Below, piece by piece: positions 6,825 to 33,676 of a stretch of DNA of 36,040 nucleotides (position 1 is its first letter; every line of letters starts with the position of its first letter). The translations under genes and the position numbers were made by a program. The notes below the pieces were generated by a model that ran no database searches, was not told the DNA's origin, and worked only from the letters and a program-made list of their open reading frames with translations. This DNA is from an uncultured Lachnospiraceae bacterium (lineage in GTDB: Bacteria > Bacillota > Clostridia > Lachnospirales > Lachnospiraceae), in assembly GCA_947652925.1 (NCBI GenBank), contig CANTEW010000027.1:1-36040 (forward strand), written 5' to 3'.

Positions 6825-9800
6825 ATGGAAAAAAGGTTTTTCGATGTGTTCCCGAATCTGCAGGCGGATGCCCAGATCAGGGAATGGCTTGACGAAGCTG
6901 TTGTCACCCGGGTGACCTGCAGCCAGGACCGGACGATGCTCCGTATCTATCTGTCCTGTGACCGATGGATACACAAGAAATATATCTTCCATCTGGAAGA
7001 GGAGATACGCTGTCAGTTTTTTGGGCAGACCAGTGTGAAAGTGAAGATCATCGAGCGGTTTCTTTTGTCCAGGCAGTATACTCCGGAAAATTTCATGGAA
7101 CTCTATAGACCGAGTATGCTGACAGAGTTAAAAGCATATGACCAGTTGGAACATAACCTGTTCCAGAGCGCTCAGATGGAATTTCCCCAGACACACAGTC
7201 TGCGGCTTTTGATCCCAGATTCTATGATCGCCCGGGAGAGAGGGGACGTGCTGGTGGAGTATCTGGAAAAAGTATTCTGCGAGCGGTGCGGCATGGATCT
7301 GAAAGTGGAGCATGCATTTGTGGCCCACCAGGAGAGCAAGTACCGGAAAAACGCTGAAAAGAAGCTGGAGCAGGAAGTGGAGCAGGTCTTACAGCATGCA
7401 TCCCTGGACAGCAGAGCAGGCCAGGAGACACAAGAAAAGAAGACACAGGGGCCAAAAGCGTCGGCATCCGGCAAGAGCGCATCCTACACGTCGAAACGTT
7501 CGGGAGATCCTGACATGGTCTATGGACGGGACTTTGACGGAGAGACTGTCCCGTTGGAGACGATCACAGGAGAGATGGGGGAAGTGGTGATCCGGGGCAA
7601 GGTGATCTCCCTGGACGAGCGGGAGATCCGGAATGAGAAGACGATCTTGATCTTTGCCGTCACGGATCTGACGGACAGCATCGTGGTGAAGATGTTCCTG
7701 GAAAATGCCCAGATGCCAAAGATCAAGGAGTCTGTGAAAAAGGGGGCTTTTCTGAAGATCAAAGGCGTGACCACCATCGACCGTTTTGACGGGGAGCTGA
7801 CCATCGGCTCTGTGCGGGGTATCCGCAAGATCGGGGATTTTACTTCCAAGAGGATGGATACGAGCCCGGAAAAACGGGTAGAACTGCACTGTCATACGAA
7901 GATGAGCGATATGGACGGGGTGACGGACGCACAGGATCTGGTGAAACGGGCTTATGAATGGGGACACAGAGCCATCGCCATCACAGACCACGGCGTGGTG
8001 CAGTCCTTTCCGGAAGCTTACCACTGTTTTGACGCCTGGGGCGGCTGTGTGCCGCCGGAAGCGGATTTCAAGGTACTCTACGGCATGGAAGCTTATCTGG
8101 TGGACGATACGAAGGGGATGGTGCAGAATGGGCGGAAACAGAGTCTGTCCGGACGTTTTGTGGTCTTTGACCTGGAGACGACCGGATTCAGCCCTATCGC
8201 GAACAGGATCATTGAGATTGGGGCAGTGCTGGTAGAAGACGGGGCGATCACAGACCGTTTTTCCACGTTTGTCAACCCGGAGACGCCGATCCCTTACCGG
8301 ATCCAGGAGCTGACGGGGATCGATGACTCGATGGTCATAGATGCGCCTGTGATCGGGCAGGTGCTGCCTGACTTTCTGGATTTCTGTAAAGATGCGGTGC
8401 TGGTGGCCCACAATGCGCCTTTTGACGTGGGATTTGTGGAGAGGAACTGCCAGCAGCTGGGACTGCCTTTTGACTTTACCTCCGTAGATACGGTGGGGAT
8501 GGCCCGTTTCCTGCTCCCGGCCCTGAACCGTTTTAAACTGGATACAGTGGCGAAAGCTCTGCAGATCCCCTTATATAACCATCACAGGGCGGTGGACGAC
8601 GCGGGCTGTACGGCGGAGATCTTCGTGAGGTTTGTGGAGATGTGCGCAGAGAGAGGGATCTATGACCTGGAGGAGCTGGATATCCAGGGGAGTGTGTCTG
8701 AAGACCAGATAAAAAAACTGCCCACATACCATGCCATCATCCTGGCTACATGTGAGACGGGCAGGATCAATCTGTATAAACTGGTATCCCTGTCCCATCT
8801 GCGGTATTATCACCGCAGCCCCCGGGTGCCGAAGAGTGTGTTCTTAAAGCACAGGGAGGGACTGATCATAGGCAGCGCCTGTGAGGCCGGGGAGCTTTAT
8901 CAGGCTGTCCTGAACGACGCCCCGGCGCCGGAGATCGCCAGATTAGTCTCTTTTTATGATTATCTGGAGATCCAGCCTCTGGGGAATAATAAATTTATGA
9001 TCGCCAGCGATAAGACGGAAGTCAGTTCCATGGAAGATCTGATGGAGATCAATCGGAAGATCGTGAAGCTGGGCGAGCAGTTTGACAAGCCTGTGGCGGC
9101 TACCTGCGACGTGCATTTCATGGATCCGGAGGACGAGGTCTATCGGAGGATCATCATGGCGGGAAAAGGGTTCACCGATGCGGACGACCAGGCGCCGCTG
9201 TATCTGCGCACCACAGAGGAGATGCTGGATGAGTTCCGCTATCTGGGTGACGAGAAAGCGGAGGAAGTGGTGATCACCAATCCCAATAAGATCGCGGACA
9301 TGTGTGAAAAGATCTCTCCGATCCATCCGGATAAATTCCCTCCGGTGATCGAAGATTCGGATAAGAACCTGCGGGAGATCTGTTTACATAAAGCCCATGA
9401 GATCTACGGGGATCCTCTGCCCCAGATCGTGGAGGAACGCCTGGAGAAGGAACTCCATTCGATCATATCCAACGGTTATGCAGTGATGTATATCATTGCC
9501 CAGAAACTGGTGTGGAAGTCCAATGAGGACGGCTATCTGGTAGGTTCCCGGGGATCGGTGGGGTCTTCTCTGGCCGCGACTATGGCGGGGATCACAGAGG
9601 TCAACCCGCTGCCGCCCCATTATTACTGCAAGAAATGCCATTACAATGATTTTGACTCTCCGGAGGTGAAAGCCTATGTGGGAAAGGTGGGGTGTGATAT
9701 GCCGGATAAGATCTGCCCGAACTGCGGAGAGCCTTTGAAAAAAGAAGGGTTTGACATCCCCTTTGAGACATTCCTTGGGTTCAAAGGGGACAAAGAACCG

Positions 9801-27061: not shown

Positions 27062-30000
27062 GTGAAGATACGGATAGATCGATTACTCGGTGATAAATTT
27101 GAATATGATATGCCAGAGCTGATATTTTCCCAAAAAGAGATACGCATAACGATCCCGCCGGGGGTCAATGAGCAGGGGGTCCTCCATGTGGGGACGCAGG
27201 AGGATCGGAAGATCCGCGGGTTCGTCGTCTCCTCCCATCGTCGTTTTGTGCCGGGGGTGGAATATTTTTCCGGCACGGCTGTCCAGATACCCTATGGGAT
27301 CGATGTGGGGGGACTCTGCCCCGGCGACAGCTGTCAGGGAGAGATGGTCTTATTAACGGATCTGGGAGAGTGCCATATCCCCTTTTATATCCAGATCGAG
27401 GAGAGACAGCCCCAGTCTTCCGTGGGGCGTATCCGGGGCAGGGAGGACTTTGTGCGATTGGCCCGCAATAGTTTTCGGGAGGCGTTCCGCCTGTTCACAG
27501 ATCCGTCTTTTCCGGAGATAGCCGATATCCAGGAGGGTAAGGCACGCACGCTGTATGAGGGGATGTCCCAGAATCCAGTGACATATCAGCACATGGAAGA
27601 ATTTCTGATCGGGATCGGGGAGAAAGACCCGGTCTATATCTCCCTGGGCGAGGAGCAGGCTGAACATTATCAATTGACAGAAACGGTGCAGGAGACCCTG
27701 TTGATAAAGAGGAGCGGATGGGGGCATCTGCGGCTGGAGATCGAAGTGATCGGCGATCTTATCCAGGTGGATAAACGGGTGGTCACAGACGAGGATTTTA
27801 TCGGCAGTTCTTTTTATCTTGAATACCGGATCGAGGGTGATGATCTGGGAAAGGGAAAGAGGTTCGGAAAGATCCGGGTGAGGGATGCTTATGAATGTCT
27901 GGACTATCAGGTCACAGCCTCCCAGAACCCCAAGATCCAGGTGGATATAGATCTCTATGAGAAAAAACAGAAACTGGTCTTGTATAAGAGCTATCTGAGA
28001 TTTCGTCTCCATCAGCAGGATTATAAAGTGTGGGTGGGTGAGAGCATAAAGGCCCTGGAGCAGATGGAGGAAGCGGGATGTGATTATCCGGTGTATCAAG
28101 TCTATAAAGCTTATGTATACTATATGGATGATCAGCAGGGACTGGCGAGGGAGATCTTACTGAAATATCAGGATAAGAACTTTACGGCAGACGATCTGGA
28201 ACTGGCGGGCGTCTACCTCTATGTCTGCCATCTTGTGGATCTTCTGAAGGACCGGGGGAAAGTGGTCCAGAAGCTGCGGGCATTGTACAGGCAGAAGCCG
28301 AACAGTTTCCTTCTGTTCTGGGTCCTTGTACAGCTGGATGACGATCTGCTCCTGTCCACGGCAAAGACTCTGTACATGATGGAGGAGCAGTTTGATTACG
28401 GCAACCGCAGCCCCCTGCTCTATCTGGAAGCGTTCACCATGATAGAGAAGGATATCAGCCTGCTCCCCCATCTGAACGGATTTTGGATCCAGGTACTCCT
28501 GTTTGCAGGGCGCAATAGGAAGATCGGGGAAGAGATGGCGGTGCGGATCGCCTATCTGAGCAGTTACCAGAAGAATTTTGATCCCTGTCTTTACAAACTC
28601 TTGATATGTCTTTATGAAAAGTACCCGAAGAGAGATATCCTGGAGGCTATCTGTAAATCCATCATGAAGGGCAGTCCCAGGGAGAAGCAGTTTTTCCCCT
28701 GGTTTTCCAGAGCAGTGGAGGAAAACCTGCGGATCACCAGCCTGTTTGAATACTATATGGACACGATCGATATGGACGATCAGCGGATGCTGCCGAAAAA
28801 CCTGCGGATCTATTTTCTATACAACAACACGCTGAGCGATAACAAAAAGGCGCTGGTCTATGCGAACATCGTCCGGCACAAAGAGGAAGATCTCCATTCC
28901 TATGAGGATTATCGGAAGATCATAGAGGGATTCAGCAAGAGGAAGTTGAAGAGCGGGGCGATGGATGAGAATTACGCAGTCTTGTACCATGACTGTATGG
29001 ATGTGCTGGAGGCAGAAGATCTGCAGAAGATCGTGTTCACCCATCGGCTGTACTGCGACAGGCCGGATATCCGCTATGTGATCGTCCGCCATGAGCCGCT
29101 GCAGGACGAGGAGGTATATCCCTGTGTCAACGGGCTGTCTTATCCCCAGATCTACAGCGAGGACGCAGTGATCATCTTCCAGGATGACAAAAAACGTCGA
29201 TATGAGGCGACGATCGACTATAACCTGCGCAAACTCTTTGATAAAGAGATGCTGGAGATGTGCCGTCAGGAAGGTTGTACCCATCCGGGGTTTTTGCTGG
29301 AACAGTGCGGGGGTCCGGGAGGGATGGAAGGGAAAGACCTGGATCTTTTTTTCCAGATCACCCAGTCGGGGGCATTCACTCCAGGATACCGGGATAAAGT
29401 GCGCAAAGATCTGCTGGATCACTATCAGTCCCTGGGAGATGGGGGGCAGATAGAGGCTTTTTTATCTTCCATCGATGTGGAGGAGTATGTGGCTGTGGAT
29501 AAAGTGCAGCTGGCAGAGCTTCTGATCGAGTACGGATCCTATGAGAAAGCCTGTCAGATCTACTGCAGATACGGGCTGGAAGGGGTGCGGCTGGAGTTAT
29601 CGGTCAGATTATGCAGCCGATGGATCTTGAGCCGGGAGTTTGGAGAGGATGAGGAGATCGAAGCACTGGCGCTCTACGTCTTCCAGCATAAAAAGTATGA
29701 CGAGGTGATCTTGCAGTATCTGATGATGCACTATCTGGGGCCTGTGGCGGAACTCTACCGGTTGTGGGTGAGCGCCAGGGACTTTCAGATGGATACCTAT
29801 CAGCTGGAAGAGAAGATCCTGGCGGTCAGTGTGTTTGTGGGGGACTATTTCTGGGAAGGCAGCCAGGTGCTGGAACATTATGTAAAGAATAAGGGGCGTG
29901 AGCAGGTCATCCGGGAGTATCTGACCTTTTGGTCCTATGGATATTTTGTCCGTCAAAAGACCATGCCGGAACTTGTGGCCCAGTATCTGGAGACTGCGTA

Positions 30001-30595
30001 TGAGAGAGAATGGCATCTGGAGCTGGTGTGCCGTCTGGCGCTGCTCGCGTATTATTGTGATAAAAGGAAGTTGACGGAGGCCCAGTCCCAGCAGGTCAGG
30101 AGCCTGCTGGAAGAATGTTATCGCAAGAACCTTACTTTTGCTTTTTTCCGGAAACTGCCCAGGAATCTGCTGGGGGCGTATCAGCTGGACGATAAGGTCT
30201 TTGTAGAGTATGTCACCAGTCCCCGTGCAGAGGTCACGATCCACTATGCTCTGGATACAGGGATCGGGGAGGGGCGGGAATATCGCCAGGAGCCTCTGCC
30301 GGATCTGTTTGAGGGGATCCATGGACGGACCTTCACACTTTTTTACGGTGAGTCTATCCACTATTATTTTACAGTGGAGCTGGATGGCGAGATCAAGAAG
30401 ACAAATGAGAAGACCCTCACCAAATCCATGGCCCATCAGCCCCAGGAGACAAAGTACCAGCTGATCAATGAGATACTGGCGGCAAAAAAACTGGGCAAGT
30501 CAGATGCGGTAAAAGAGAAGATGACACAATATCTGGAACAGGAAAAATTCGTGGAGAGTATGTTCCCCATTGAAGAAGGAACGGTTTATGAATGA
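27062..30595 (+). CDS. DUF5717 family protein, large putative scaffold (beta ends, helical-repeat middle)
   Basis: This 1177-aa protein has no signal peptide or membrane segment, so it is probably cytoplasmic. The N-terminal ~300 residues look beta-rich (FSQKEIRITIPPGVNEQGVL, VEYFSGTAVQIPYGIDVGGL). Residues ~310-800 are dominated by amphipathic helices resembling TPR-like repeats (CDYPVYQVYKAYVYYMDDQQ, AREILLKYQ, KARALYRQKP-type units). A second helical block and a beta-rich C-terminal domain follow (LFEGIHGRTFTLFYGESIHY). I recognise it as the Lachnospiraceae DUF5717 family from its pairing with a DUF5716-like gene; no function is known. The start is GTG 27062 with AGGAGA six bases upstream. 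It overlaps the next gene by 8 bp. A MITE-like element ends 35 bp before the start. Confidence 0.75.
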   Translation: MKIRIDRLLGDKFEYDMPELIFSQKEIRITIPPGVNEQGVLHVGTQEDRKIRGFVVSSHRRFVPGVEYFSGTAVQIPYGIDVGGLCPGDSCQGEMVLLTDLGECHIPFYIQIEERQPQSSVGRIRGREDFVRLARNSFREAFRLFTDPSFPEIADIQEGKARTLYEGMSQNPVTYQHMEEFLIGIGEKDPVYISLGEEQAEHYQLTETVQETLLIKRSGWGHLRLEIEVIGDLIQVDKRVVTDEDFIGSSFYLEYRIEGDDLGKGKRFGKIRVRDAYECLDYQVTASQNPKIQVDIDLYEKKQKLVLYKSYLRFRLHQQDYKVWVGESIKALEQMEEAGCDYPVYQVYKAYVYYMDDQQGLAREILLKYQDKNFTADDLELAGVYLYVCHLVDLLKDRGKVVQKLRALYRQKPNSFLLFWVLVQLDDDLLLSTAKTLYMMEEQFDYGNRSPLLYLEAFTMIEKDISLLPHLNGFWIQVLLFAGRNRKIGEEMAVRIAYLSSYQKNFDPCLYKLLICLYEKYPKRDILEAICKSIMKGSPREKQFFPWFSRAVEENLRITSLFEYYMDTIDMDDQRMLPKNLRIYFLYNNTLSDNKKALVYANIVRHKEEDLHSYEDYRKIIEGFSKRKLKSGAMDENYAVLYHDCMDVLEAEDLQKIVFTHRLYCDRPDIRYVIVRHEPLQDEEVYPCVNGLSYPQIYSEDAVIIFQDDKKRRYEATIDYNLRKLFDKEMLEMCRQEGCTHPGFLLEQCGGPGGMEGKDLDLFFQITQSGAFTPGYRDKVRKDLLDHYQSLGDGGQIEAFLSSIDVEEYVAVDKVQLAELLIEYGSYEKACQIYCRYGLEGVRLELSVRLCSRWILSREFGEDEEIEALALYVFQHKKYDEVILQYLMMHYLGPVAELYRLWVSARDFQMDTYQLEEKILAVSVFVGDYFWEGSQVLEHYVKNKGREQVIREYLTFWSYGYFVRQKTMPELVAQYLETAYEREWHLELVCRLALLAYYCDKRKLTEAQSQQVRSLLEECYRKNLTFAFFRKLPRNLLGAYQLDDKVFVEYVTSPRAEVTIHYALDTGIGEGREYRQEPLPDLFEGIHGRTFTLFYGESIHYYFTVELDGEIKKTNEKTLTKSMAHQPQETKYQLINEILAAKKLGKSDAVKEKMTQYLEQEKFVESMFPIEEGTVYE

Positions 30596-31835
30596 GATTA
30601 GAGATATTCTGATAGGGATCGATTTTGGAAAAACGGAGTCACAGCTCTGCTATTATGACAGAAAAGCGAGGGAACCTGTGTCTTTGTCCATGAAAGTGGG
30701 GAGCAGCCAGTATGAATTCCCTACCTGTGTGTGTAAGAACATGGATCAGGATGTCTGGTATTTTGGACGGGAAGCCGTTTACAATGCAAAGGAACAGGGC
30801 GGCATCCTGGTAGAGGGACTCTATGAGATCTGTAAGGATACGCAAGCCGTCCAGGTAGGCGGTGAGGAGAAGAGGCCATGGGAATTGATGGGGATCTTCC
30901 TGGGAAAGATCCTGAAGGCTCTGGGCACGGTAGAACCGGTAAAGCATACCAAGTGTCTTGTGATCACGGTAGAGAGGCTGACGAAGGTCATGGTGGAGAA
31001 CCTTCAGAAGGCCTGTGAGGATATCGGGTTTTCTCGAGACAGCTATATGCTGCAGGATCACTCAGAGAGCTTTTATTATTATACTTTATGCCAGAAACCG
31101 GAGTACTGGAGCCGCAGTGTGGGGTGGTATGCCTTCGACCAGGATCTGGTGAGCTTCCGCAGACTCTCTATGACCAGCAATACAAAGCCCATACTGGTGA
31201 CGCTGGAAAAGCCGGTGTCTGTCACACTCCCCCAGGAGGCAAAGGAGCGGGATGGGGATTTCTGCAGATTTATCCAGGAGTCGCTGGGAGGGGGGATGTA
31301 TTCCAGTATCCTGCTCACTGGGAATGGTTTCCACCAGGAGTGGGCTGTCAAGTCGGTAGGACTCTTGTGCAAACAGCAGAGGAAGGTCTTTTACGGCAAT
31401 AATCTATTTGCAAAAGGGGCATGTTATACAGCGAAGGAAAAATTAGAAGACAAGGAACTCCGGAGATATCTTTATCTGAGCGATGCTCTGGTAAAATATA
31501 ATATAGGCATGGATATGATGATCATGGGTTCCCCGGCGTATTATCCGATCATCCAGGCGGGGAAGAACTGGTACGAATGCCGGACGGTCTTCGACCTGAT
31601 CTTGGATGATACCGGGCAGCTGATCTTTTATATCAGTCAGATGCAGTCAAATGATAAGCAAAAAGTTTCCATGTCCCTGCCGGGACTCCCGCCCAGGCCC
31701 AACCGGACAACACGCCTGCGGGTGTGCCTGGAGTGTCAGTCGGAAACAGTCTGTAAGATCACAGTGAAAGATATGGGCTTCGGGGAGATGTATCCCTCCA
31801 GCAAAAAGATATGGACAGAGACGATCCAAGCGTAA
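30588..31835 (+). CDS. DUF5716 family protein, actin/Hsp70-like ATPase fold
   Basis: The 415-aa protein begins with a phosphate-1-like loop, DILIGIDFGKTESQLCYYD, as in actin/Hsp70 ATPases. A later segment, SSILLTGNGFHQEW, resembles the adenosine motif. WYAFDQDLVSFRRL lies where the phosphate-2 loop is expected but lacks its glycines, so catalysis is uncertain. An ILDDTGQLIFYI-like beta end follows. No membrane segment is present. The ATG at 30588 overlaps the DUF5717 stop and has GAAGGAAC upstream, so translation is coupled. I assign DUF5716 from this arrangement. Together with the next gene it suggests an ATPase plus two helical-repeat partners acting as one complex (inference). Confidence 0.75.
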   Translation: MNEIRDILIGIDFGKTESQLCYYDRKAREPVSLSMKVGSSQYEFPTCVCKNMDQDVWYFGREAVYNAKEQGGILVEGLYEICKDTQAVQVGGEEKRPWELMGIFLGKILKALGTVEPVKHTKCLVITVERLTKVMVENLQKACEDIGFSRDSYMLQDHSESFYYYTLCQKPEYWSRSVGWYAFDQDLVSFRRLSMTSNTKPILVTLEKPVSVTLPQEAKERDGDFCRFIQESLGGGMYSSILLTGNGFHQEWAVKSVGLLCKQQRKVFYGNNLFAKGACYTAKEKLEDKELRRYLYLSDALVKYNIGMDMMIMGSPAYYPIIQAGKNWYECRTVFDLILDDTGQLIFYISQMQSNDKQKVSMSLPGLPPRPNRTTRLRVCLECQSETVCKITVKDMGFGEMYPSSKKIWTETIQA

Positions 31836-31845
31836 GGAGGTATCC

Positions 31846-32631
31846 ATGAGCGGTTATATTTTATGTAAAGCATCGATGGCATCGGTCCCCTATTATATCC
31901 AAAATATCGGCACAAATATCTACTCCATTGAGGAATTATGCTATTATCTCCACCGGGATCTGTATCTGGTGGACGCCAGCCTGATGAATGCGGGACTGTG
32001 CAGATGGATCAGCCAGGAGCTGGGTATGAAAGAACTGGCCAGGCGCTTGCTGATGCTGATAGAACACGGCACGGTCCCACTGGAGGATTTTGTCTGCGAG
32101 ATCTTGCGCTCGATCAATTATCTCCCCCAGGACGAGCTGCGGTCGTACCGGAATAAGATCTCGGCTCTGGAGAAACAGTCAGTCCCTGTACGGGAAAAAC
32201 TGAAAGGGGACTGCCTGATGGAAAACCGGAAATATGTCAACGCCATACGGGTATACCGCACAGTCCTGGAACAGGTAGCCGACCGCCCCAGCTCGCCCCG
32301 CTTTTCCGGGAGTATCTACCATAACTTGGGATGTGCGTACAGCCGCCTTTTCCAGAAAGAAGAAGCCCTTGAGTGTTTTGAGAGGGCATATGAGTGCCTG
32401 CACACAAGGGATTCCCTCAAACATTATCTTCTGGCCTACAGCAATGCGAAAACGCCGATCGAATATGAGAGCCGGATGGCAGAGATGAAAGTGGATGAAC
32501 AGACCAGAAAAGAGATCCAGGATGCGATCTCGGAATTCTACAGCAGTACGGATATCTATGTGCAGGAGCACAGCGTGGAAGAACTCCTGGGGCAGATGAC
32601 GAAAGAATATCACCACAATACAGGGTCGTGA
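31846..32631 (+). CDS. TPR-repeat protein, third gene of the DUF5717-DUF5716 operon
   Basis: The 261-aa protein is mainly helical. Its first part (1-100) reads LCKASMASVPYYIQNIGTNI and YSIEELCYYLHRDLYLVDAS, with no family I can name. Residues ~125-205 contain recognisable TPR-like helices (GDCLMENRKYVNAIRVYRTV; SIYHNLGCAYSRLFQKEEAL ECFERAYE). A charged C-terminal tail follows. It starts 10 bp after the DUF5716 stop with AAGGAGG upstream, so it belongs to the same transcript. It probably mediates protein contacts in the same assembly; no enzymatic motif is seen. Confidence 0.75.
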   Translation: MSGYILCKASMASVPYYIQNIGTNIYSIEELCYYLHRDLYLVDASLMNAGLCRWISQELGMKELARRLLMLIEHGTVPLEDFVCEILRSINYLPQDELRSYRNKISALEKQSVPVREKLKGDCLMENRKYVNAIRVYRTVLEQVADRPSSPRFSGSIYHNLGCAYSRLFQKEEALECFERAYECLHTRDSLKHYLLAYSNAKTPIEYESRMAEMKVDEQTRKEIQDAISEFYSSTDIYVQEHSVEELLGQMTKEYHHNTGS

Positions 32632-32654: not shown

Positions 32655-33676
32655 ATGGCAAAGAAGTGTCGAAAGAGTCTATCTTTTCGGATCTGAATAA
32701 TCTGGAAGTGGTGACGGCCACATCGGATAAATATGGGGATGCCTTTGGATTTACGGAGGAGGAAGTATTTGCGGCCATGGATGCTTTTGGACTGGAAGAT
32801 AAGCAGGGAGTCAAGGAATGGTATAATGGCTTTATCTTCGGAAAGGCGAAGGATATCTACAATCCCTGGTCTGTCTTAAATTATCTGGATAAAAAGAAAG
32901 TGGATATCTACTGGGCAGATACAAGTTCTAATAGTCTGGTCGGCAAGCTGATCCGGGAAGGGGATGAGGGTCTTAGATCATCTTTTGGGATATTGCTGGC
33001 GGGAGGACGTCTGGTGACCGCTATGGACGAGCAGATCATCTATGACCAGCTGGACGGCAGCGAAGAGGCTATATGGAGTTTGCTGGTGGCCGGTGGATAT
33101 CTGAAAGTGGTGGAGCATGAGGAGTACAGGACCGGATATGTGACGGCGCCCAAGTACGGATTGGAACTGACAGACCTGGAAGTAATAGTCATGTTCCAGA
33201 AAATGGTCCGGGGTTGGTTTTCCAGTGTGAGACGGGAGTATAATGGTTTTATCAAGGCGTTGCTCCTGGATGATCTGGATGGGATGAACGCATATATGGA
33301 GCGTGTGGCCCGACAGACGTTCAGCTTCTTTGATACGGGGAGATATGTGCAGCCGGAACGCTTTTACCATGGCTTTGTGCTGGGGCTGATGGTGGAACTG
33401 CAGGATAGGTATCGGATCACGTCCAACCGTGAGAGCGGCCTCGGCAGATATGATATCATGTTGGAACCTTTATCTCTGGAAGATCCCGGCGTAGTCATTG
33501 GATTTAAAGTCTTTGACCCGAAAAAAGAAAAAGATCTGAAAGAGACGGTGGAAAATGCATTGGCGCAGATCAGAGAAAAACGGTATGAGACAGGACTGCA
33601 GATGAGAGGGATCCCTGCCGAGAGGATCAGGAGGTATGGCTTCGCTTTTGCAGGCAAGGCAGTCCTGATCGGATGA
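32655..33676 (+). pseudogene. Decayed AAA-like/PD-(D/E)XK nuclease protein (N-terminal deletion, frameshift)
   Basis: The long frame from 32651 to 33676 encodes the middle and end of the AAA-ATPase-like plus DUF1703 nuclease family: KESIFSDLNNLEVVT, DAFGFTEEEVFAAMDAFG, VKEWYNGFIFG, NPWSVLNYLDKKK, YWADTSSNSLVGKLIREG, then the nuclease part with RYDIMLEP. The ~200-residue N-terminal domain with its P-loop is missing. A Shine-Dalgarno (GGGAGG, 32646-32651) and ATG 32655 remain, reading MAKK, but in another frame that stops after 13 codons. This suggests an internal deletion of about 0.6 kb between codons of the start and the middle. The E-x-K catalytic Glu also appears to be Gly (VIGFKVF). A leaky GTG start at 32666 could yield a 336-aa fragment. 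Confidence 0.78.

Follow-up and report, generated by a model that had tools for sequence, protein, structure and literature searches.

What is the origin of a three-gene operon that encodes a very large DUF5717 protein, a DUF5716 protein and a small tetratricopeptide repeat (TPR) protein, and what might such a trio do in the gut bacteria that carry it almost without exception? We addressed this question for the copy at positions 27062-32631 of a 36,040-nucleotide stretch from an uncultured Lachnospiraceae bacterium (contig CANTEW010000027.1, GenBank assembly GCA_947652925.1; hereafter the window). An earlier interpretation of the DNA letters alone (the sequence-only reading) had seen here one complex in which an ATPase-fold protein is joined by a helical-repeat partner and a small TPR adaptor, perhaps a cytoskeletal, chaperone-like or assembly machine peculiar to this bacterial family. 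The analysis below favors, with a probability of roughly 0.55, an operon whose products form a scaffold complex in the cytosol that works without ATP and goes back to a dedicated Hsp70 chaperone machine. Genomes, loci and families are cited by our G, L and f identifiers, f1 being Lachnospiraceae.

The genes are as tightly coupled as first noted, with an 8-bp overlap followed by a 10-bp gap (a mechanical list of open reading frames places the DUF5716 start at TTG 30570 rather than at ATG 30588). Both DUF proteins exceed the Pfam gathering cut-offs: DUF5717 matches DUF5717_N (PF18984, residues 1-860, E=7e-237) and, C-terminally, PF18983 (residues 863-1168, 5.3e-98), and DUF5716 matches DUF5716_C (PF18980, 9.8e-105), while the TPR protein matches TPR_2 (2.7e-9). 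Neither DUF protein matches an NCBIfam family at E≤1, and no transmembrane (TM) segment is seen by hydropathy in any of the three. Our 80 named loci, the best among 578 confirmed relatives, come from Blautia, Butyrivibrio, Kineothrix, Fusicatenibacter and uncultured Lachnospiraceae, with some labeled only 'Clostridia' or 'Eubacteriales'. DUF5717 lies upstream of DUF5716 in 78 of them and the TPR gene downstream in 79, on the same strand throughout; the exceptions are contig ends (L131, L120) and L085, which has no intact DUF5717 frame. Together with the near-universal presence in Lachnospiraceae described below, this bears out the view of the trio as one conserved unit. Strong purifying selection acts on the operon: the ratio of nonsynonymous to synonymous substitution rates is 0.03-0.11 for all three genes against two relatives that are 86-87% identical in DUF5716, at synonymous distances of 0.98-2.2, which are near saturation (a third comparison, with L080, was saturated and yields no ratio).

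Profile searches point to an Hsp70 ancestry of DUF5716. Against the PDB, a profile built from 64 sequences recovers four distinct sequences at E≤10, all of them DnaK, and no chain of MreB, ParM or FtsA; the best match (0.0067) comes through two collinear stretches, in the nucleotide-binding domain (NBD) and the β-subdomain of the substrate-binding domain (SBD-β), each weak alone. In other families of the same order we found a larger operon with four Hsp70 paralogs, here termed A to D, and hhalign aligns DUF5716 with Hsp70-B over 414 columns (1e-51; about 80 residues of Hsp70-B remain unaligned) and with Hsp70-D over 183 columns covering the first part of the NBD (3.6e-6). Hsp70-B in turn aligns with DnaK over its full length (2.9e-20). 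By the alignment limits, DUF5716 comprises an NBD-like region (residues ~1-295) and an SBD-β (~296-415) after which it ends directly, without the SBD-α lid. Thus, DUF5716 is by descent a degenerate Hsp70, the ortholog of Hsp70-B, and not a generic actin-like ATPase.

The gene order of the larger operon, drawn from all loci, is DUF5717-N (~390 amino acids (aa)), DUF5717 (~900 aa), Hsp70-A (554-603 aa), a GrpE-like subunit with a GrpE domain at its end (546-645 aa), Hsp70-B (456-542 aa), Hsp70-C (539-586 aa), Hsp70-D fused to a VWA domain (689-727 aa) and a TPR protein (382-413 aa). Among 18 loci mapped outside Lachnospiraceae, 13 show the A-GrpE-B-C-D order and six have all eight genes; L041, L048, L050 and L051 are partial (split operon or contig end), and L037 has four Hsp70s and a short, 279-aa GrpE-like gene, its D and TPR frames being broken in a metagenome-assembled genome. 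At L039 the DUF5717_N model is covered by the first two proteins (388-aa and 900-aa genes) one after the other, and Hsp70-A, -C and -D give HSP70 matches of 1.6e-63 or better; Hsp70-B gives a weak HSP70 match (1.8e-14) and a strong DUF5716_C match (2.2e-33). The VWA domain of Hsp70-D (L039:6790-8862) has the sequence DTTGS, which we take to be a MIDAS-like motif; this Hsp70-VWA fusion is strongly conserved and, in the samples searched, restricted to a portion of one order. A class-wide search for the VWA part matched 5 of 291 genomes, none of them within the order, at 25-37% identity; these were taken as unrelated VWA proteins. Hsp70-B evolves far faster than the other paralogs, with a mean pairwise identity of 33% versus 72% for A, 67% for C and 72% for D over the same 13 loci; fast evolution is likewise reported for the atypical yeast Hsp70s in a passage of PMC3879978.

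Our order sample comprises 196 genomes, namely 22 from Lachnospiraceae, all DUF5716-positive, and 174 from other families. The VWA part of Hsp70-D occurs in 68 of the 196 and the GrpE-like subunit in 69, and each was found in none of the 22 Lachnospiraceae genomes; four markers (DUF5716/Hsp70-B, DUF5717, Hsp70-D and the GrpE-like subunit) are all present in 63 of the other 174 and all missing from 102. At the Lachnospiraceae locus DUF5717, Hsp70-B (as DUF5716) and the TPR gene are retained, and Hsp70-A and -C are gone. The Lachnospiraceae operon is the residue of a larger four-Hsp70 operon and not a stand-alone invention: the family specificity suspected in the sequence-only reading is correct for the three-gene form, which is almost confined to Lachnospiraceae, but not for the system from which it descends.

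A maximum-likelihood tree of 54 proteins, restricted to Hsp70s and rooted on the DnaK of the window's genome, agrees with this descent. The DUF5716 proteins form one clade (100/99) nested within Hsp70-B beside L037_B, the Hsp70-B of G449 (100/99), and Hsp70-B with DUF5716 (100/100) is the sister group of Hsp70-C (100/98). The placements of L046_B/L052_B and of L176_Bshort are unsure and call for long-branch caution.

Both a motif and a subdomain were lost (Table 1). The GGGT of the phosphate-2 loop is absent from all 75 DUF5716 rows (74 distinct) and from all ten Hsp70-B proteins, and is intact in Hsp70-A (10/10), Hsp70-C (10/10) and Hsp70-D (9/10, the tenth being a broken frame); hence the motif, which persists in A, C and D, had been lost from Hsp70-B before the reduction in Lachnospiraceae. 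From the phosphate-2 motif to the adenosine motif there are 49-68 residues in DUF5716 (median 53), as against 122-142 in Hsp70-B and 119-180 in A, C, D and the two Hsp70s of the window's own genome, and the roughly 80 residues of Hsp70-B that hhalign leaves unaligned fall in this segment; by sequence, the subdomain IIB region is therefore missing from DUF5716. The direction is read as loss since DUF5716 is without a block common to the other Hsp70s in the tree. Subdomain IIB contacts GrpE and closes the adenine pocket, of which it forms half; thus Lachnospiraceae are without the part that binds GrpE and also without the GrpE-like gene. The combined loss of the phosphate-2 motif and the IIB region makes ATPase activity unlikely and suggests that even ATP binding has been lost, such that the ATPase-fold assignment holds at the level of the actin/Hsp70 superfamily but would not extend to catalysis.

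Table 1. Features of the three-gene operon; coordinates refer to the window.
Feature	Position	Strand	Remarks
DUF5717	27062-30595	+	1177 aa; GTG start behind AGGAG
DUF5717 N-terminal region	27062-27952	+	residues 9-297 match the DUF5717-N profile, E=3.6e-35
DUF5716	30588-31835	+	415 aa from ATG; 8-bp overlap with the DUF5717 frame
Phosphate-1 loop remnant GIDFGKTE	30615-30638	+	canonical GIDLGTTN
Phosphate-2 loop position, AFDQDLVS	31131-31154	+	canonical D-L/F-GGGT-F/L-D
Short connector	31155-31310	+	53 residues by alignment; site of subdomain IIB in canonical Hsp70s
Adenosine-motif remnant LLTGNGFHQEW	31311-31343	+	opens the best conserved part of DUF5716
TPR protein	31846-32631	+	261 aa; 10-bp gap after DUF5716

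The phyletic patterns indicate which part of the machine is constant. DUF5716_C is present in 195 of 200 Lachnospiraceae genomes, with a single match per genome in 193 of these and two in G377 and G385; of the five genomes without it, three keep DUF5717 (two are incomplete and one has DUF5717 at a contig end). In a phylum-wide draw of 249 genomes DUF5716_C is found in four, all Lachnospiraceae, and DUF5717 in five, namely the same family's four and one match below the curated cut-off. The order sample contains DUF5716/Hsp70-B in 89 genomes and DUF5717 in 93, with both in 88 and one alone in six. The expected co-occurrence is thus observed, but the two genes are sometimes unlinked, as they lie on different contigs in the draft assemblies of G471, G450 and G483. 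As they co-occur despite this separation, joint retention seems to reflect more than linkage, and DUF5717 with Hsp70-B/DUF5716 is the constant core of the operon.

A second reduction is seen in G460 (f123, 96% complete), whose locus encodes only DUF5717-N, DUF5717 and a B-type Hsp70, the next gene being unlike the TPR gene. Whole-genome searches of G460 found neither the VWA-Hsp70 nor the GrpE-like subunit, and Hsp70-A and -C are absent from the locus, to which the search for them was confined. Its Hsp70-B groups with that of G497 (95/95), also of f123, and the G497 contig retains Hsp70-A and the GrpE-like gene; DUF5717 and Hsp70-B thus appear to have survived a second, independent loss. A possible parallel case, of unsure placement in the tree, is L176 (G568, f129), where Hsp70-B is shortened to 412 aa (7604-8842) even though the locus still has Hsp70-A, the GrpE-like gene, Hsp70-C and Hsp70-D.

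The partner proteins are candidate parts of a scaffold. DUF5717 of Lachnospiraceae is a single protein that corresponds to two genes, DUF5717-N and DUF5717, in at least eight of the 18 mapped loci of other families, and profiles of the two forms of DUF5717 match at E=1.5e-77. Fusion is not unique to Lachnospiraceae, given that in f129 (L046, L052) DUF5717 carries, fused to it, the first and third of the N-terminal Ig-like regions and that L049 has one frame of 1326 aa. A 386-aa open reading frame ahead of DUF5717 in L053 (G445) was considered as a split DUF5717-N and shows no similarity to it. The Lachnospiraceae profile (DUF5717 alignment, n=62) finds nothing significant in the PDB, and the profile from other families finds designed TPR proteins (1.4e-11). 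The N-terminal region looks, judging the fold by eye, like tandem Ig-type β domains, and the best-supported architecture, again partly by eye, is Ig-like regions followed by a TPR-like solenoid and a C-terminal β region. The small TPR protein combines a family-specific N-terminal domain with TPR-like repeats and is a homolog of the ~385-aa TPR protein of the parent operon. Thus, the proposed composition, an actin/Hsp70-superfamily protein with a helical-repeat and a TPR partner, is supported.

Many relatives carry a further gene that is without a counterpart in the window's genome, where no match was found. Its product is a coiled-coil protein in which two or three TM windows are predicted within a hydrophobic region; one member gave no Pfam or NCBIfam match above cut-off. 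The gene follows the TPR gene in 29 of 79 named loci, all among L123-L156, and is present in 91 of 200 Lachnospiraceae genomes, about half. It lies 0.7-1.25 kb from DUF5716 in 66 of the 68 genomes for which both positions are listed; in the other two it is on another contig (G340) or a weak partial match (G261). Outside Lachnospiraceae it stands at the operon end in L037 (4102-5238), L046, L052 and L176. Another copy is that at L057:7940-9130. The protein suggests that the complex is tethered to the membrane in the species that have it.

The homology, the gene and motif losses and the co-retention, as read from the sequences, lead to the following proposal. DUF5716 would not hydrolyze ATP and probably would not bind it; DUF5717 would grip its NBD remnant as a rigid docking lobe, and its SBD-β, having no lid, would keep one fixed peptide bound with no nucleotide cycle, the peptide coming from a client or from a partner (the TPR protein, for instance). 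In this complex DUF5717 would provide the backbone, with the TPR protein serving as adaptor, and in about half of the Lachnospiraceae the neighboring coiled-coil protein may anchor the complex at the membrane. In the ancestral form, the three active Hsp70s may have received their clients from the Hsp70-B/DUF5717 core, in the manner of the atypical yeast Hsp70s. More tentatively, and at somewhat less than even odds, a family-wide core process of Lachnospiraceae might run on a 'fossil chaperone', an Hsp70 clamp that has lost its nucleotide machinery and become a permanent structural hub with DUF5717, the ancestral machine of four Hsp70s, GrpE and VWA having shed its ATPases independently in at least two lineages.

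Several observations weigh against this proposal. The Pfam HSP70 model fails to match DUF5716, the connection to Hsp70 depends on Hsp70-B and on weak direct matches to DnaK, and the tree has long branches (L173_Bred, 2.0; L046_B, L052_B, L053 and L054). The GIDFG stretch and the conserved adenosine-like motif remain, and residual nucleotide binding is therefore possible; its loss, like complex formation, is deduced from sequence. Two of the 200 Lachnospiraceae genomes (G277 and G339) lack both DUF5716 and DUF5717, implying either that the complex is dispensable somewhere or an assembly gap, and nine of the 174 genomes of other families have a partial set of the four markers. The search for Hsp70-A and -C away from the locus covered the window's genome only. 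Finally, G603 (f116, locus L174) has a DUF5717-DUF5716-TPR copy of the Lachnospiraceae type that groups inside that family (98/95), for which transfer or misbinning is likelier than independent reduction.

The strongest competing explanation, which we nevertheless regard as unlikely, makes the complex a co-chaperone of the housekeeping DnaK: no longer having ATPases of its own, it would gather a special class of clients and pass them to the general DnaK, DnaJ and GrpE, and DUF5716 would contact DnaK as a regulatory pseudo-Hsp70. Binding to chaperones is common among TPR proteins. In the window's genome dnaK and a dnaJ-type gene are retained, and an exact CIRCE lies close by, at 1.8 kb upstream of dnaK. 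Apart from DnaK, the HSP70 model matches a 337-aa frame there, which we take as MreB, and a large Hsp70 that is unrelated; a dedicated Hsp70-A, -C or -D was thus not found in that genome. DUF5716 shares with DnaK and HscA the NBD and SBD-β and, through Hsp70-B, full-length collinear homology, but differs from them in the missing GGGT, IIB region and lid and in the operon's want of a detected CIRCE. A scan of 41 loci, some of which start inside the operon and lack its upstream region, for CIRCE (up to four mismatches) and CtsR sites (up to two, with no positive control) found none at the operon, the sole hits being CIRCE-like with four mismatches in L049 and L057, away from it; heat-shock control was accordingly rejected, and there is no sign of regulation shared with DnaK. 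Nor does any J-domain family reach the curated cut-off among the three window and eight L039 operon proteins (DNAJ_related matches DUF5717 at E=0.55 only), and among the 26 window proteins scanned with Pfam neither a J-domain nor GrpE does so. The missing IIB region is, moreover, the site at which Hsp110-type partners contact Hsp70 NBDs. Hsp110/Sse and Lhs1 resemble DUF5716 as degenerate Hsp70s that modulate other Hsp70s, but exchange factors of this kind bind ATP and act through complete NBDs. A passage of PMC8476630 says as much of Sse, from which DUF5716 differs in lacking the IIB region, and one of PMC3879978 describes the atypical yeast Hsp70s as co-chaperones of canonical ones, as the DnaK-linked explanation would have it.

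Less probable still is a variant modeled directly on yeast Ssz1, in which DUF5716 binds ATP without hydrolysis and stays docked, frozen in an ATP-like state, inside a stable complex. Partly kept phosphate-1 and adenosine-like motifs speak for it; the GGGT loop, missing in 75 of 75 rows, and the loss of the IIB region with its half of the adenine pocket speak against. As an analogy and not a family assignment, Ssz1 nonetheless seems the closest working parallel. A passage of PMC8476630 describes it as having no lid, a divergent SBD-β and no hydrolysis, a domain plan that DUF5716 shares. Ssz1 acts in the ribosome-associated complex with the J-protein Zuo1 and the canonical Hsp70 Ssb, and both proteins are Hsp70-derived, have an obligate scaffold partner, are expected to have no catalytic cycle and evolve fast beside slow canonical Hsp70s. 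Unlike Ssz1, DUF5716 is bacterial, is additionally without the phosphate-2 loop and IIB region, and persists in Lachnospiraceae without a dedicated canonical Hsp70 at the locus; it also has no J-domain partner among the window and L039 operon proteins, one encoded elsewhere not having been sought.

A defense or conflict system akin to the GAP1-N2 GTPase systems is very improbable. Those systems, as described in PMC7159879, link HSP70(s), GrpE and TPR/FNIII-type scaffolds, a subset having a second, truncated HSP70 without the peptide-binding domain; likewise, Hsp70-D has a VWA domain, and the PADLOC candidate-defense model PDC-M61B matches part of its Hsp70 region (2e-7). However, the GAP1-N2 systems center on a GTPase with zinc ribbons and GAP1, and no Pfam GTPase match was found in the window trio or the L039 operon (GAP1 was not searched separately). 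The parent operon further differs in its four Hsp70 paralogs, GrpE-fused subunit and VWA fusion, and in the ATPase-less core that came later, and the DUF5716 system is near-universal in one family, with a non-patchy distribution and, as a rule, a single match per genome. At E≤0.01 PADLOC gave no match for DUF5717, DUF5716, DUF5717-N or the coiled-coil protein, and the matches of the TPR protein (0.0086) and the GrpE-like protein (0.0014) are marginal; PHROGs yielded one TPR-type match (7.4e-6). Equally remote is an actin-like cytoskeletal filament of Lachnospiraceae, as the sequence-only reading had allowed: Hsp70 and actin share the NBD fold and the partner is large and helical, but the profile reaches DnaK alone, the presence of an SBD-β argues against a filament former, the IIB region is missing and the Hsp70-only tree nests DUF5716 deep within the Hsp70s.

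In the literature searched we found no description of the DUF5716/DUF5717 system, whose names occur in one paper in what we took to be an incidental mention, or of its parent operon, the nearest printed relative found being the HSP70/GrpE theme of the GAP1-N2 systems (eLife 2020, PMC7159879). The analysis offers an origin for two Pfam families of unknown function that are near-universal in the sampled genomes of a dominant gut family, with DUF5716 as a degenerate Hsp70 and DUF5717 as its scaffold partner. The series from the larger operon through G460 to the three-gene form can be viewed as a natural experiment on the indispensable part of a chaperone machine; were the fossil-chaperone idea true, the scaffold and not the ATP cycle would be the irreducible function.

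A second Hsp70-type system is encoded in the window's genome (G000:C56:1486-2595, L159), with the Hsp70 in a 944-aa frame beside a 363-aa gene; this Hsp70 retains the GGGT loop intact and is considerably extended at its C terminus. Adjacent to the operon, valS, purC-purF and cobD look like inherited synteny rather than a functional clue. Immediately downstream of the TPR gene, and separating the operon from purC, is a PDDEXK_9 protein (32666-33676), whose Pfam match is confined to the nuclease-type domain at its C terminus (residues 230-335) and which may be a truncated remnant of a longer AAA/PDDEXK protein.

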